Position numbers and translations under genes: made by a program. This document shows positions 44,267 to 48,836 of a stretch of DNA of 64,000 bases, in pieces; position 1 is the first letter of the stretch, and every line of letters starts with the position of its first letter. The DNA lies in contig NZ_BCTQ01000009.1 of assembly GCF_001571365.1 (NCBI RefSeq), positions 1-64,000 on the forward strand. The letters are read 5' to 3'. Source of the stretch: Achromobacter denitrificans NBRC 15125 (lineage in GTDB: Bacteria > Pseudomonadota > Gammaproteobacteria > Burkholderiales > Burkholderiaceae_B). Below the pieces are notes generated by a model. The model saw only the letters and a list, made by a program, of their open reading frames with translations, did no database searches and was not told the DNA's origin.

Positions 44267-44599
44267 CTACTGCAACGACGCCGGCGCGTCGTGCAACACG
44301 CCGCAAGGGTCCGCATCCGCGCCGCAAGCCCGCGCCTGCTTCAGCATGGCGTCCGCCAAGGTCCCCAAGTGATCGCACAAGCCTTCCACCCCGCCCATCA
44401 ACGCCGCCACCGTCCACGCGTCTAGCGGCTGTCCGCCGGTCGCGTCAGGCTCGGACGCGCTGTTGCCGACCATGCGTGCCATGGCCGCGATGGCGTAGCG
44501 GGCTCTGTCGATTTGGTAGAGAGGGGATAGGGGGACCAGGCCGTGCTCGGGATCGGCGTCGACGGACCAGGGGTTTTGGGTGAGGGGGTGGGATTGCAT
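44267..44599 (-). CDS. Small helical protein of unknown function (DUF3077/DUF6124-like size)
   Basis: A 110-aa protein without signal peptide. An Ala-rich middle, DRARYAIAAMARMVGNSA and WTVAALMGGVEGLCDHLGT, forms likely amphipathic helices, and three Cys lie in the last third. The size and helical pattern recall small Pseudomonas proteins of the DUF3077/DUF6124 kind, but that link is by feel only. A GGAG site lies in the 20 nt before the ATG at 44599. A structured leader appears to precede it. Confidence 0.55.
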   Translation of the reverse strand: MQSHPLTQNPWSVDADPEHGLVPLSPLYQIDRARYAIAAMARMVGNSASEPDATGGQPLDAWTVAALMGGVEGLCDHLGTLADAMLKQARACGADADPCGVLHDAPASLQ

Positions 44600-45053
44600 G
44601 ACAGGCTCCAAAGACAGGTTAGGCCTGCTCCCCACTTCCAAATGGGGTGGGCGGGCACAAGGCAAGGTTGGAAGACCGGTATCTTTGGAAACCGGCGTGC
44701 GCGAACGCACCCTCGCCAAGGCCCGCCCATAGGGACGTGCAAAGGCGTTCGGACGTGAAAATGCCGCCGAAGCGGCGGCAGTCCGCCAAAGACATTACCG
44801 GCTTCCAAACCGGGCTACCGTTGGTGGCGGTAATGGGGGGAGCATACGGGAGGGGATTGGTGCTGTCCGGTGTTAGTGACAATTTCGCCGCATGATGATA
44901 TTTATATTCAGGCTGATAATTGTCTTTTAACCAGGCCAGTCAGCCGCATACCCTTACCTGCCGACTGCTTTCAGGGGTAATCGTTTCCTCAGCAACTAGC
45001 CGCACCGCGCCATCAGACTAATAATGTATTGGGGCCGCGAGGCATCTTAAAAA
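44600..45053. other. Leader region with hairpins, then low-GC junction
   Basis: Read on the minus strand, the part from about 44870 to 44600 precedes the 110-aa gene. It holds a GCCGC-TTCG-GCGGC hairpin with a UUCG tetraloop (44764-44777) followed by ATTTT. It also holds related words GGTTTCCAAAGATACCGG and CCCGGTTTGGAAGCCGG that can pair with themselves, and a CTGTCTTTGG/AGGCTCC region next to the ATG. It looks like a structured RNA leader. From about 44885 the base composition drops, marking the edge of the low-GC island; nothing is seen to 45053. Confidence 0.4.
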
Positions 45054-45650
45054 TCACACAGGATTCAATTCCCTCAAATTTGATATCGCGCGCCGCAGAC
45101 TTGCCGAATGATCTTGAGCATTTTGCAACGCCCATCTGCTTTTTACAAATTCCTTAAGATGAATATTATAGCCCGACCCTCTCTTGCTCAAATCCATTGA
45201 CGACACCATTTCATCTCGATACAACCGTTTCTTGGATTTTGAAATTAAATTCAAAATCAGCAACTTGGGATCGACTACTCTATCCACATTCATTGGAATT
45301 TTATTAGGGACGGTTTGAAAATAGGATGAAAAACCGGCACGATCGGCCAATATCCAACTTTCAATCTCAGTCACCGCCAAACGAAACACAAAATCGCGCG
45401 GTGCATGTAGAGGTCGCCACTGCCTAGCTAACTGTACCGGACACCTCCCGTCGGTATCTGCTATACAAAAAACAGGCTGCACATACTGAGCTTGCTCCGC
45501 ATACCGGGGCAAATTGGTAGTGAGCTTTGTTATGCCTCTGGCATCAATAGCCATTCCCGATAATTTCCATGCCGGCAATAATGTCTGTATTATCTTCTCC
45601 CCTAAAGAACAACATAGAACATCTTCGCCTATCACTAATATTCGACTCAT
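45054..45650 (-). CDS. Toprim-like (DUF4276-type) protein, putative defence nuclease
   Basis: A 198-aa protein. The Toprim acidic positions are seen as Glu 9 in LVIGED and the DxD pair at 65/67 in FCIADTDG, and the segment TEIESWILADR at about 94-104 is typical of DUF4276-type proteins. Its ATG overlaps the stop of the AAA ATPase gene by 4 nt, so it is translationally coupled. AAA plus Toprim pairs (PARIS, OLD-like) act in phage defence, the Toprim being the effector nuclease. Family placement is by motif only. Codon use is AT-rich, unlike the neighbours, which indicates transfer. Confidence 0.7.
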   Translation of the reverse strand: MSRILVIGEDVLCCSLGEKIIQTLLPAWKLSGMAIDARGITKLTTNLPRYAEQAQYVQPVFCIADTDGRCPVQLARQWRPLHAPRDFVFRLAVTEIESWILADRAGFSSYFQTVPNKIPMNVDRVVDPKLLILNLISKSKKRLYRDEMVSSMDLSKRGSGYNIHLKEFVKSRWALQNAQDHSASLRRAISNLRELNPV

Positions 45651-46810
45651 TCCCACAGCCCCAACTGATCAATGGCTTGTGGCCTCGTTTTTGGCAACAG
45701 GACTTCCGCAACCGTCAAGCCGTAACGAGTCTGCTCTTCCTCCTCCTTATTCGGGGGCCTTATGGTTGAGCCGTTCGGTCCGGGTTCGATTAAGAGAATC
45801 TGACTATCTTCTGAAACTTGCTGTAGCAGAGTCTCGCTATGGGTACTTACTAAGACTTGGCGTGAAGATAGACGCTTTTTTCGACCTCTCAACACTCGAT
45901 CGATCAGTAGAGGTATGTGCGAAACAATGCCGTCATTTAGCGACAATTCCGGTTCCTCCAAGAGAAGTAACCCCTCCCCCTCTTGCAAGGCCCAAAGTAA
46001 ACCAATTAAGCGCAATGTTCCATCTGAGAATTGATTTTCTCTCTGCCAAGCCCCGTTGACGCGCCAGTGAGTAAAATTGGCTTCCAAATGCCATAAACCA
46101 GTCACCACATCCTGCTCAAATCGCAGTTCGGAAAATAGTGGAACTGCGGTAGCGAGAGATTGCTGAATCCGCTTTAATCTGGCATCTCTAGTTTTCTTCG
46201 GAGTCTTTGCAATACGTTGCATTAGCCCTTGTCCAAAGGGATCACTTTCTGGCATACGTGCTCCGATCTCATCCCCATGCTTTAATAATTGAGGAATTAA
46301 ATGGAGATACGTCGTACTAGCAAAAAACTCTGCCAATTCGCGAAATTTCGCGTTACTACCAATTTGCTCCAGATGAGTCTGGGTCAATCTCTCAGGGTCC
46401 TTTAGATCATCTTTGTCCGGCCTATTTAGCACCTCATCGCTACCACACATAACGCGTTCTTCAGCGACGATAACCCTCTGCTGACCTTTCCCTTCAGCTT
46501 TAAGCGCCAAGATATAAGCCCACTGAACAGGAACATCGCTTGAATCATCCAACAAATAAATTTCAATGCGAATTCCCGGATCGCGACGTGCATGAAGGCT
46601 GCGCAATTTAGTCAGTCCACCTCTGTCGCGCAAGGCTTTTTGAAGCCCTCCCCCTTCCGACTGCGCTAAGGAGCGCAGAAAACGAAATACGTCTAAAAAG
46701 TTCGACTTACCTGATGCATTCGCCCCAATTACGAAACTCCGTGGCTTCAAGGGGATATTAATATCCTGAAAGTTCCTCCAGTTCTTTAACTTGATTCCCT
46801 CAATTTGCAT
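45647..46810 (-). CDS. AAA family ATPase (AAA15/AAA_21), putative defence sensor
   Basis: A 387-aa ABC-class ATPase resembling RecF/OLD heads. Walker A is IGANASGKSN at 28-37, the signature is QFSDGTLRL at 260-268, Walker B is LLLLEEPELSL at 281-291, and the switch His is in VSTHSE at 321-326. All catalytic residues are intact. Such proteins in tandem with a small Toprim partner sense phage proteins and release or activate the partner. The gene is AT-rich, first of a coupled pair, and lies in a low-GC island. Confidence 0.85.
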   Translation of the reverse strand: MQIEGIKLKNWRNFQDINIPLKPRSFVIGANASGKSNFLDVFRFLRSLAQSEGGGLQKALRDRGGLTKLRSLHARRDPGIRIEIYLLDDSSDVPVQWAYILALKAEGKGQQRVIVAEERVMCGSDEVLNRPDKDDLKDPERLTQTHLEQIGSNAKFRELAEFFASTTYLHLIPQLLKHGDEIGARMPESDPFGQGLMQRIAKTPKKTRDARLKRIQQSLATAVPLFSELRFEQDVVTGLWHLEANFTHWRVNGAWQRENQFSDGTLRLIGLLWALQEGEGLLLLEEPELSLNDGIVSHIPLLIDRVLRGRKKRLSSRQVLVSTHSETLLQQVSEDSQILLIEPGPNGSTIRPPNKEEEEQTRYGLTVAEVLLPKTRPQAIDQLGLWE

Positions 46811-47120
46811 ATTTACGCCTTTCGCTTAATTTTGGCCAGAAAGTTCGTTTCAAGTATATTTGAACGAAGAAAAATTCACCATCACCAGGGAGAACAACTT
46901 AAACCAAAGACATCGTCAATCAGGGAATTATATTTTCATAGAATTTGGAATTAACTCTCTAAAAACAACCTTCGAGATCAATAACGATAAATCCCATTTC
47001 CTTCAATCCCCCCTTTTATCCCCGGGGGCATAAAATAATAGTCTACCATTTCTTTTTTTAGTCAATTCGAAAATGTTCTTCGCTTAATTTCCGCCCCCCA
47101 TTGAAGAAAAGGGCAGAGAA
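46811..47120. other. 310-bp low-GC intergenic region with a dyad
   Basis: TTCAA-N6-TTGAA at 46849-46864, within GTTCGTTTC...GAACGAAG, lies 39 bp upstream of the AAA ATPase start and could be its operator. No gene is seen in the remainder, which is A/T-rich. Confidence 0.4.
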
Positions 47121-47993
47121 TTAAGAAATTAATTCTCGCATGAGATCACCATTAGAGACGCCCATGCGATAAAGAGCAGTATTGGGATATCTTTCCTTTA
47201 GCAACTCGCGCACTCTAGCTTCCGTCGCTTCTGACGTCCGATTGCCCAGTGTGACAGACTCCAGCTCCTCGGGATAGAACTGATAGTCTCCATACTGTCT
47301 ACCTCCCTCATCGTTTCGCCATGTAAGAACTCTCCACTCTTGCTCATTAGACCAACTGGACTTTTTCGTAAAACAGACCGCATGAAGTGTCTTTTCCCTC
47401 AATTCAGAGGTATCTCCGTACAACAAGAAGTCCAGCCCCGAACCTACAACGGGGCATTCGTCCAAGTAGGTTACCTTACGTGCTGCAAGCAGGGGCGTTG
47501 AGCGCTCTTCAATATGCTGAAAACCAAGAACGCAACCCGTGTGAGATCCGGCATAGTTTCCCCACATCGCATCAATGCTAAAGTCGGTGGTCACACACAG
47601 AACTCTCGCCTTATTGATGTCAAGTGCCTCGAAGTAATTCCGTAGCGTCGTTGCAATTCGATCATCAATGTCAGGTTGAGCCATATGCAACATTTGATGC
47701 AATTCCTCTCTGGAAAGACCACTAGCAACTAACTGCCTAATCAGGACGAGCAACTCCTTCGTCGATGGCCCCAACCGGTCTTCGTCCAAACCCTCGCCAT
47801 CAAACACCGCTGATTCAAGGATTCCTGGTAGTAGTGCACTGGCTTCCGCTACCGATGGTTCAAATCTCGGCATCCGTCGAAACTCGGCAACATCGTTAAA
47901 TAGCACGGGACTGGACCAACGAAGACGAGAGCCTTCCAGAACTATGGAAGCGGTTTTTGCCGAAGTATATTTATAGAATACCGGTGGATGCAT
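47121..47993 (-). CDS. DUF2971 domain protein
   Basis: A 290-aa protein with DUF2971 features: YKYTSAKTASIVLEGSRLRW at the N-terminus, LFNDVAEFR (the LFNDPFE-like segment) at about 31-39, MWGNYAGSHTGCVLGF at 143-158, and FTKKSSWSNEQEWRVL at about 216-231. The biochemical role of the family is unknown; such genes often sit in defence islands. It shares strand and low GC with the AAA-Toprim pair but is separated by 310 bp, so it may be a third component or an independent gene. Confidence 0.8.
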   Translation of the reverse strand: MHPPVFYKYTSAKTASIVLEGSRLRWSSPVLFNDVAEFRRMPRFEPSVAEASALLPGILESAVFDGEGLDEDRLGPSTKELLVLIRQLVASGLSREELHQMLHMAQPDIDDRIATTLRNYFEALDINKARVLCVTTDFSIDAMWGNYAGSHTGCVLGFQHIEERSTPLLAARKVTYLDECPVVGSGLDFLLYGDTSELREKTLHAVCFTKKSSWSNEQEWRVLTWRNDEGGRQYGDYQFYPEELESVTLGNRTSEATEARVRELLKERYPNTALYRMGVSNGDLMRELIS

Positions 47994-48221
47994 TATTTTT
48001 CTCGTATTCGACGCAAATATTTTTTAACCTTTTCTTTCGCTCTTTGAAAAAATTCACCCCCAAGAAACCGGGAATTTCAGTCCCTTTTAAAAGGCGGTAG
48101 CGAAGAAATATCGGACTACAACTCGCAAAAAAATAATCTGAAATTTTTGCTCAACCCACAGTTCCGAGGGCCAGCCTCCACACGCGATTGATGGCCTAAA
48201 CAAACACCTTATCATCAGTAG
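47994..48221. other. Low-GC junction of the island
   Basis: A/T-rich non-coding DNA from the DUF2971 start to about 48220, where composition returns to high GC inside the ABC ATPase gene. No gene or site is seen. The boundary lies within the last codons of the ABC gene. Confidence 0.4.
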
Positions 48222-48836
48222 CTAGCAAAGAACTCCAACATCAATAGTCCGCGCCCCACACCCCTCCACCAACTCCCCATCATGGCTCGCAAACAACACC
48301 ACCCGATCCTTCCCCCAAGCCCTAAATAACTCCGCCAGCACAGCCCGCCCCCGCGCATCGAACCCCTTGCTAGGCCCATCCGCGATCACCACCGCCGGAT
48401 CGCCCAAGGCCGCCGCCGTCACGAACACCTTGCGCCGCGTGCCGGTCGACATCTGTTCAAAGCGCTTGTCCAGATGCGGCTCCAGGCCCAGGTCATAGGC
48501 CAGCTCCAACGTGGCCTCGTCCAGCGCCACATTCTTTTCCGCCGCGACCTGTTCCAGCAGCCCGCGCCCCGTCAGCGTGGGAAACGCGAGGCAGTTGTCG
48601 GGCACGTAGGCCAGGCGGGCCTTGGCTTGTTGGGGCGCGTGGGTCAGGGAATGGCCGTCTATCCAGACGTCTCCGCTATCGGGCGCGAGGACGCCTGCGA
48701 TGATATTCAGGAGGGTGGATTTGCCGGTGCTGTCTTCTTCGCATAGGGCCACGCACCCGGGCGTGAAGCGGTGGGTGAGGCCCTGGAAGACGAGGTAGTC
48801 GCCGTAGCGTTTGCTGAGATTGTCGAGTCGTAGCAT
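48222..48836 (-). CDS. ABC transporter ATP-binding protein with degenerate motifs
   Basis: A 204-aa ABC ATPase-like protein. The Walker A position reads CEEDSTGKST, missing the usual glycines, while Lys and Ser/Thr remain. The signature is MSTGTRRKV in place of LSGGQ, and Walker B reads VVIADGPSKGFD, where the catalytic Glu is Gly. It is thus unlikely to be an ordinary ATPase, though the rest of the frame is intact. The protein is short, and its C-terminus ends exactly at the low-GC junction, so it may be truncated. No permease gene is adjacent. Confidence 0.7.
   Translation of the reverse strand: MLRLDNLSKRYGDYLVFQGLTHRFTPGCVALCEEDSTGKSTLLNIIAGVLAPDSGDVWIDGHSLTHAPQQAKARLAYVPDNCLAFPTLTGRGLLEQVAAEKNVALDEATLELAYDLGLEPHLDKRFEQMSTGTRRKVFVTAAALGDPAVVIADGPSKGFDARGRAVLAELFRAWGKDRVVLFASHDGELVEGCGARTIDVGVLC
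48805..48835. repeat. Direct repeat, copy 1 (5-prime end of the ABC gene)
   Basis: TAGCGTTTGCTGAGATTGTC and on, 31 nt, matches positions 54380-54410 at 29 of 31 bases in the same orientation. Here it is the coding start of the ABC ATPase (minus strand). Confidence 0.7.

Follow-up and report, generated by a model that had tools for sequence, protein, structure and literature searches.

A predicted HEC-01 ATPase/Toprim pair and an independent DUF2971 gene in a variable slot bordered by a C4 antisense RNA in Achromobacter denitrificans

A low-G+C island of Achromobacter denitrificans NBRC 15125 (RefSeq assembly GCF_001571365.1) has been analysed within the first 64,000 nucleotides of contig NZ_BCTQ01000009.1, a stretch referred to here as the window. 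The island encodes an ABC-type ATPase, a short Toprim protein and a DUF2971 protein. The list of open reading frames (ORFs) places all three genes on the minus strand within 45054-47993, at the coordinates given by a first-pass annotation, which had regarded the trio as a candidate defence system that it could not match to a described one. The current analysis indicates that the ATPase and Toprim genes, which overlap, form a HEC-01 pair, probably acting as a two-part switch for phage defence, and that the DUF2971 protein belongs to a separate family.

The three genes depart sharply from the surrounding composition, as the annotation had described (44-49% G+C against 67% in the remaining window). 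The G+C content is 0.436 for the Toprim gene, 0.472 for the ATPase gene, 0.487 for the DUF2971 gene and 0.455 for the island as a whole (44890-48221), compared with 0.673 for the window minus the island; segments of the same length, taken every 50 bases clear of the island, have a minimum of at least 0.62. FecA/FecR/FecI-like iron cassettes, named by eye, are present on either side of the island, in agreement with the earlier description, but the island is immediately bordered on the left by a C4 antisense RNA and a gene of 110 amino acids (aa), and on the right by the gene of an ABC ATPase.

The ATPase is assigned to the PADLOC family HEC-01A with 469.8 bits, residues 1-384 of 387 aligning to positions 1-379 of the 382 of the model. 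It also matches the Pfam family AAA_21 (1.7e-26). The ABC core is intact, with a Walker A motif at 29, the signature FSDGTLR at 261, a Walker B motif with its Glu at 281 and an H-loop at 322, and these positions are mostly invariant across 27 aligned sequences (the window and 26 related loci, L028 being left out). A PADLOC model labelled AriA (PDLC02980), which matches the same 304 positions as Pfam AAA_21, gives 1.7e-24, and the HEC-01A match is far better.

The Toprim ORF is open from a GTG over 45054-45656. The best start is the ATG at 45650, which lies within the ATGA of the ATPase stop, so that the overlap of 4 nucleotides proposed earlier is confirmed, and which gives a protein of 198 aa. 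This protein matches HEC-01B with 192.7 bits (residues 5-197 of 200 on positions 2-192 of 195). The earlier label of DUF4276-like is right and weak, since PF14103 scores 16.9 bits, under its gathering cut-off of 30.2; Pfam at E <= 1 lists DUF4276 alone for the protein, with no DUF4435 match. The acids that had been named as Toprim residues are conserved in 49 sequences, Asp 65 being invariant and Glu 9 and Asp 67 at least 90% conserved. In the structure comparison of an AlphaFold2 model (predicted local distance difference test, pLDDT, 95.9), OLD and PARIS entries fill the first six VIA rows, and the predicted fold appears to fit the OLD and PARIS nucleases best. The PARIS chains among the best rows are taken by us to be AriB, from their chain length.

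A pattern scan of a species-genome collection yielded 27 ATPase loci with 42-78% identity, which span Betaproteobacteria, Chloroflexi, Planctomycetes, Ignavibacteria and a methanogen. The Toprim partner follows the ATPase at 26 of these loci by tblastn and at all 27 by a profile that was built in part from many of the same loci; L028 ends shortly past the ATPase. The Toprim start lies -4 to +10 nucleotides from the ATPase stop at all 26 measured loci, and translational coupling of the two genes is likely. The gene order of HEC-01, with A and B adjacent and A preceding B, is that of the window. From these sequence comparisons the pair is a well-supported member of HEC-01, a candidate family of PADLOC, and is therefore not undescribed; nor is the third gene, which belongs to the PADLOC family PDC-S31. 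The distribution is patchy: a single genome among the 43 of the genus has the ATPase, as do 4 of the 268 family genomes.

Table 1. Features of the island and of its borders, in window coordinates
Feature	Position	Strand	Evidence
110-aa gene behind C4 leader, left anchor of slot	44267..44599	-	recurs with C4 leader in the genus
C4 antisense RNA (RF01695), left edge of slot	44643..44734	-	Rfam 69.9 bits, gathering score 45
Variable slot	44850..48221	.	same two flanks in G013 enclose Upx and a reverse transcriptase
HEC-01B short stand-alone Toprim protein, 198 aa	45054..45650	-	PADLOC PDLC04193; AlphaFold2 model; E9/D65/D67 conservation
ATGA overlap, ATPase stop/Toprim start	45647..45650	-	-4 start possible at 19 of 26 related loci
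HEC-01A ABC/AAA_21 ATPase, 387 aa	45647..46810	-	PADLOC PDLC04180; Pfam AAA_21; motifs
DUF2971/PDC-S31 protein, 290 aa, predicted ADP-ribosyltransferase-like fold	47121..47993	-	PF11185; PDC-S31; model
ABC-transporter ATPase gene, core-like, right edge of slot	48222..48836	-	PF00005 61 bits

The genes surrounding the pair have been surveyed at the related loci, where the two closest greedy-called ORFs to either side were scanned, giving 95 ORFs. At 4 of the 27 loci (L006, L010, L015 and L016, the last assigned through 78% identity to L015) a type III-like DNA methyltransferase gene immediately precedes the pair; the remaining neighbours are for the most part unremarkable, and among the 25 of 47 neighbour families that were listed, the others have one or two members each. 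At L015:228-7456 and L016:5365-12531 this methyltransferase gene is on one side of the pair and a ResIII-type gene follows on the other. Some HEC-01 relatives may therefore be linked to restriction-modification.

The third protein scores 27.0 bits with PF11185 (DUF2971), over the Pfam cut-off of 22, and 79.3 bits with PDC-S31. The DUF2971 profile has no match at the 27 pair loci, 26 of which include at least 1.5 kilobases (kb) upstream, enough for the arrangement seen in the window; conversely, the profiles of the pair have no match at 18 DUF2971 loci. These 18 represent 17 places, L095 and L117 being one place, and several copies on viral contigs are near-identical. In a genome of the same family (G106) the lower-G+C pair has no DUF2971 beside it and is flanked by genes of core-like appearance, judged by eye. 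The slots of two sister genomes (G002 and G021) combine DUF2971 with other partners, and in two genomes (G039 and G029) DUF2971 lies close to C4 RNAs. Since none of the 27 pair loci has DUF2971, and none of the 17 DUF2971 places has the pair, the DUF2971 gene is an independent neighbour outside the HEC-01 pair. A three-part system of all the genes, with DUF2971 as second effector or regulator, would agree with the upstream position on the same strand, in the same low-G+C island and across a gap of 310 base pairs (bp); in view of the separate occurrence of the two elements we consider it highly improbable. The trio of the first-pass annotation finds no support as a single system, and its defence proposal holds for the ATPase/Toprim pair. 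An imperfect direct repeat of 17 bp (88%) is found near both ends of the DUF2971-ATPase gap (46821-46837 and 47079-47095); it may be a junction scar or a chance occurrence.

The structural model of the DUF2971 protein has a pLDDT of 93.5, and its structure comparison gives Tpt1/DarT rows; Foldseek by itself finds no significant match. In the sequence alignment of 38 DUF2971 proteins K8, Y9, Y147, E219 and R221 are invariant. On the basis of the model the protein is predicted to be an effector of ADP-ribosyltransferase fold that acts alone. The literature search found no published function for PDC-S31 or DUF2971. Relatives at L099-L114 are encoded on IMG/VR viral contigs and are possibly prophage cargo. 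At about 7574-9662 of L151 (G039:C97) a C4 RNA cassette is followed closely, on its own strand, by two tandem DUF2971 genes.

The position occupied by the island is a variable slot, which in sister species houses other known or candidate antiviral genes. In G013 the flanks are 95.5% and 96.6% identical to those of the window and the filling scores 2338.5 bits with Upx and 247 bits with the RT_VI reverse transcriptase; these two genes adjoin each other at L079:6006-11195. The contiguous left fec flank is common to four further genomes, with Avs3a/Avs3b (2428 and 210 bits) in G022, PDC-M18A/B in G039, where the slot is divided over two contigs, DUF2971 in G002, and DUF2971 with a type IIG restriction-modification protein in G021. 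In G011 and G010 a related fec cassette is found some 2 kb away from the C4 cassette, which borders PDC-M65A/B in the former and, in the latter, PDC-S54 (550 bits) together with a HEC-06-like protein. G037 matches at the slot through its C4 cassette only, over about 570 bp, with PDC-M11A/B genes alongside; its fecI match is about 10 kb off. PADLOC families are matched by 19 of the 28 proteins scanned in these eight genomes, one of them weakly (PDC-S15, 24 bits), the 28 being our own selection from the ORFs, without control proteins.

Homology to the left flank ends at 44849 in G013, G039, G022, G011 and G010; in G037 it stops at 44827, and the G002 and G021 matches stop at 44600. The right flank is in place only in G013 and G039 among the genomes examined; the far side in G002, G021 and G022 corresponds to 52.7 to 54.5 kb of the window. 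The ABC ATPase gene of the right edge is matched in every one of the other 42 genus members (75-97% DNA identity), mostly elsewhere.

The C4 antisense RNA leads the 110-aa gene, for which no Pfam family is obtained at E <= 1e-4. Inverted repeats containing TTTGGAAG are found before (44798-44813) and just after the RNA and, by eye, look like possible target sites. The C4 RNA also borders the slot in G013, G039, G022, G011, G010 and G037, and was not found at the G002 and G021 loci. The genus has 49 copies in 31 of 43 genomes, up to three per genome, and these 31 are among the 54 of 268 genomes of the family with a match. Both sides of the 49 loci (the window, L079, L084, L086, L115 and L120-L163) have been viewed, and the genus-wide tests around C4 concerned G+C, DUF2971 and one reverse-transcriptase profile. 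Within 5 kb, a stretch of 1.5 kb with a G+C content below 53% occurs upstream of 22 of 47 and downstream of 11 of 43 C4 RNAs, compared with 5 of 160 control segments, and on either side of 28 of 41 C4 RNAs compared with 5 of 80 control pairs; sides under 4.5 kb were excluded, and partial orthology means that the loci are not independent. Four of the 11 DUF2971 genes of the genus (at 3 loci) lie less than 3 kb from a C4 RNA, for which a uniform model gives 4e-10, a value overstated because two of the four are adjacent. Among the 17 of 49 loci displayed, a similar small gene of about 100 aa mostly follows the C4 RNA, and low-G+C genes that look by eye like SIR2, SEFIR or AAA are seen near some.

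We tentatively suggest, somewhat short of calling it probable, that the C4 RNA with its gene of about 100 aa serves defence islands across the genus as landing pad or carrier, islands with unrelated antiphage genes being exchanged at its edge, and that C4 control, which has hitherto been known from phage immunity, was recruited to hotspots of defence genes. HEC-01 and the DarT-like DUF2971 would be the present load here. No published account of a C4-bordered hotspot appears among the literature matches listed, whereas the pair is not new.

The pair itself may be envisaged to defend against phage as follows. The HEC-01A ATPase would sense infection, and its assembly would keep the Toprim protein inactive until a phage product acts as trigger, by analogy with PARIS. 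A small Toprim gene of its own, overlapping the ATPase gene, and an ABC core with its motifs intact would fit such PARIS-like control. PMC12409363 describes an AriA ATPase hexamer that holds three AriB copies, which a phage trigger frees, the dimeric AriB then cleaving transfer RNA (tRNA). The freed Toprim protein of HEC-01, probably a metal-dependent nuclease, would likewise cut nucleic acid, RNA such as tRNA being the first guess and DNA the second, and the cleavage would stop infection.

An effector that is a DNA nickase of the OLD/Gabija type instead of a ribonuclease is quite possible, though we lean away from it: the structural rows are about 1 Z apart and nearly tied, and a small Toprim gene beside a separate ATPase gene is the layout of PARIS, unlike the OLD/GajA fusion. 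A toxin-antitoxin-like or island-stabilising module is unlikely; Pfam describes AAA_21 as a putative AbiEii toxin of a type IV toxin-antitoxin system, and an ATPase restraining a toxic Toprim protein would stabilise an island too, but the closest solved folds are OLD and PARIS entries, and defence accords better with the copies linked to methyltransferases and with the defence slot. Still less credible is ordinary low-G+C cargo with no role against phages. Uncharacterised ATPases are common in genomic islands; against this stand the family-level matches and the contents of the eight sister genomes at the same flank or C4 cassette. The evidence taken together points to the HEC-01 pair as the probable defence unit, with its full-length matches, its Toprim-nuclease-like model and conserved acids, and a slot with defence genes in sister genomes.

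HEC-01, an uncharacterised candidate, thereby becomes a well-bounded unit of two overlapping genes with a testable nuclease site, apart from a bystander gene, and DUF2971 gains a fold-based hypothesis as an ADP-ribosyltransferase. For one bacterial genus the C4 antisense RNA suggests itself as a marker, simple to search for, of variable islands that bear defence genes, and if the link is causal, searching beside C4 RNAs could reveal new defence systems.

Several known systems resemble the genes of the island. PARIS (AriA/AriB) shares the separate ABC ATPase and short Toprim genes, but the Toprim protein of the window matches models of DUF4276 type, with no match listed to DUF4435, the AriB type. 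OLD, GajA of Gabija and HEC-04 (IbfA) also combine an ABC ATPase with Toprim, and GajA is matched by the N-terminus of the ATPase and OLD by the Toprim model; those are single fused polypeptides whereas the window has two ORFs, and no UvrD-type gene adjoins the pair. According to PMC12111858, the candidate HEC-04, a fusion of an ATPase and TOPRIM, gives protection from T4 and T5 and none from T7 or lambda. The PADLOC models mad3 of MADS (59 bits) and AbiLi of AbiL (62 bits) match the ATPase, but the NCBIfam MAD3 score of 65.9 is far under the cut-off of 420 and no methylase gene is present among the window neighbours scanned. The DUF2971 protein, by its model, resembles DarT and Tpt1/KptA of the ADP-ribosyltransferase superfamily; unlike DarTG, its gene has no DarG-like macrodomain partner beside it, the neighbours on both sides being ATPases. 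As regards HEC-01 itself, the window pair differs in being situated outside any Hma locus, in a fec-flanked and C4-RNA-bordered slot. The Hma location is a naming circumstance and, as far as is known, no required part of HEC-01. The name stems from a location inside the Hma locus, according to PMC12111858, and the one paper found to mention HEC-01 itself, PMC12724379, gives it as a predicted system. The likeness to HEC-01 is in both proteins matching over their full length, adjacent and with A before B.
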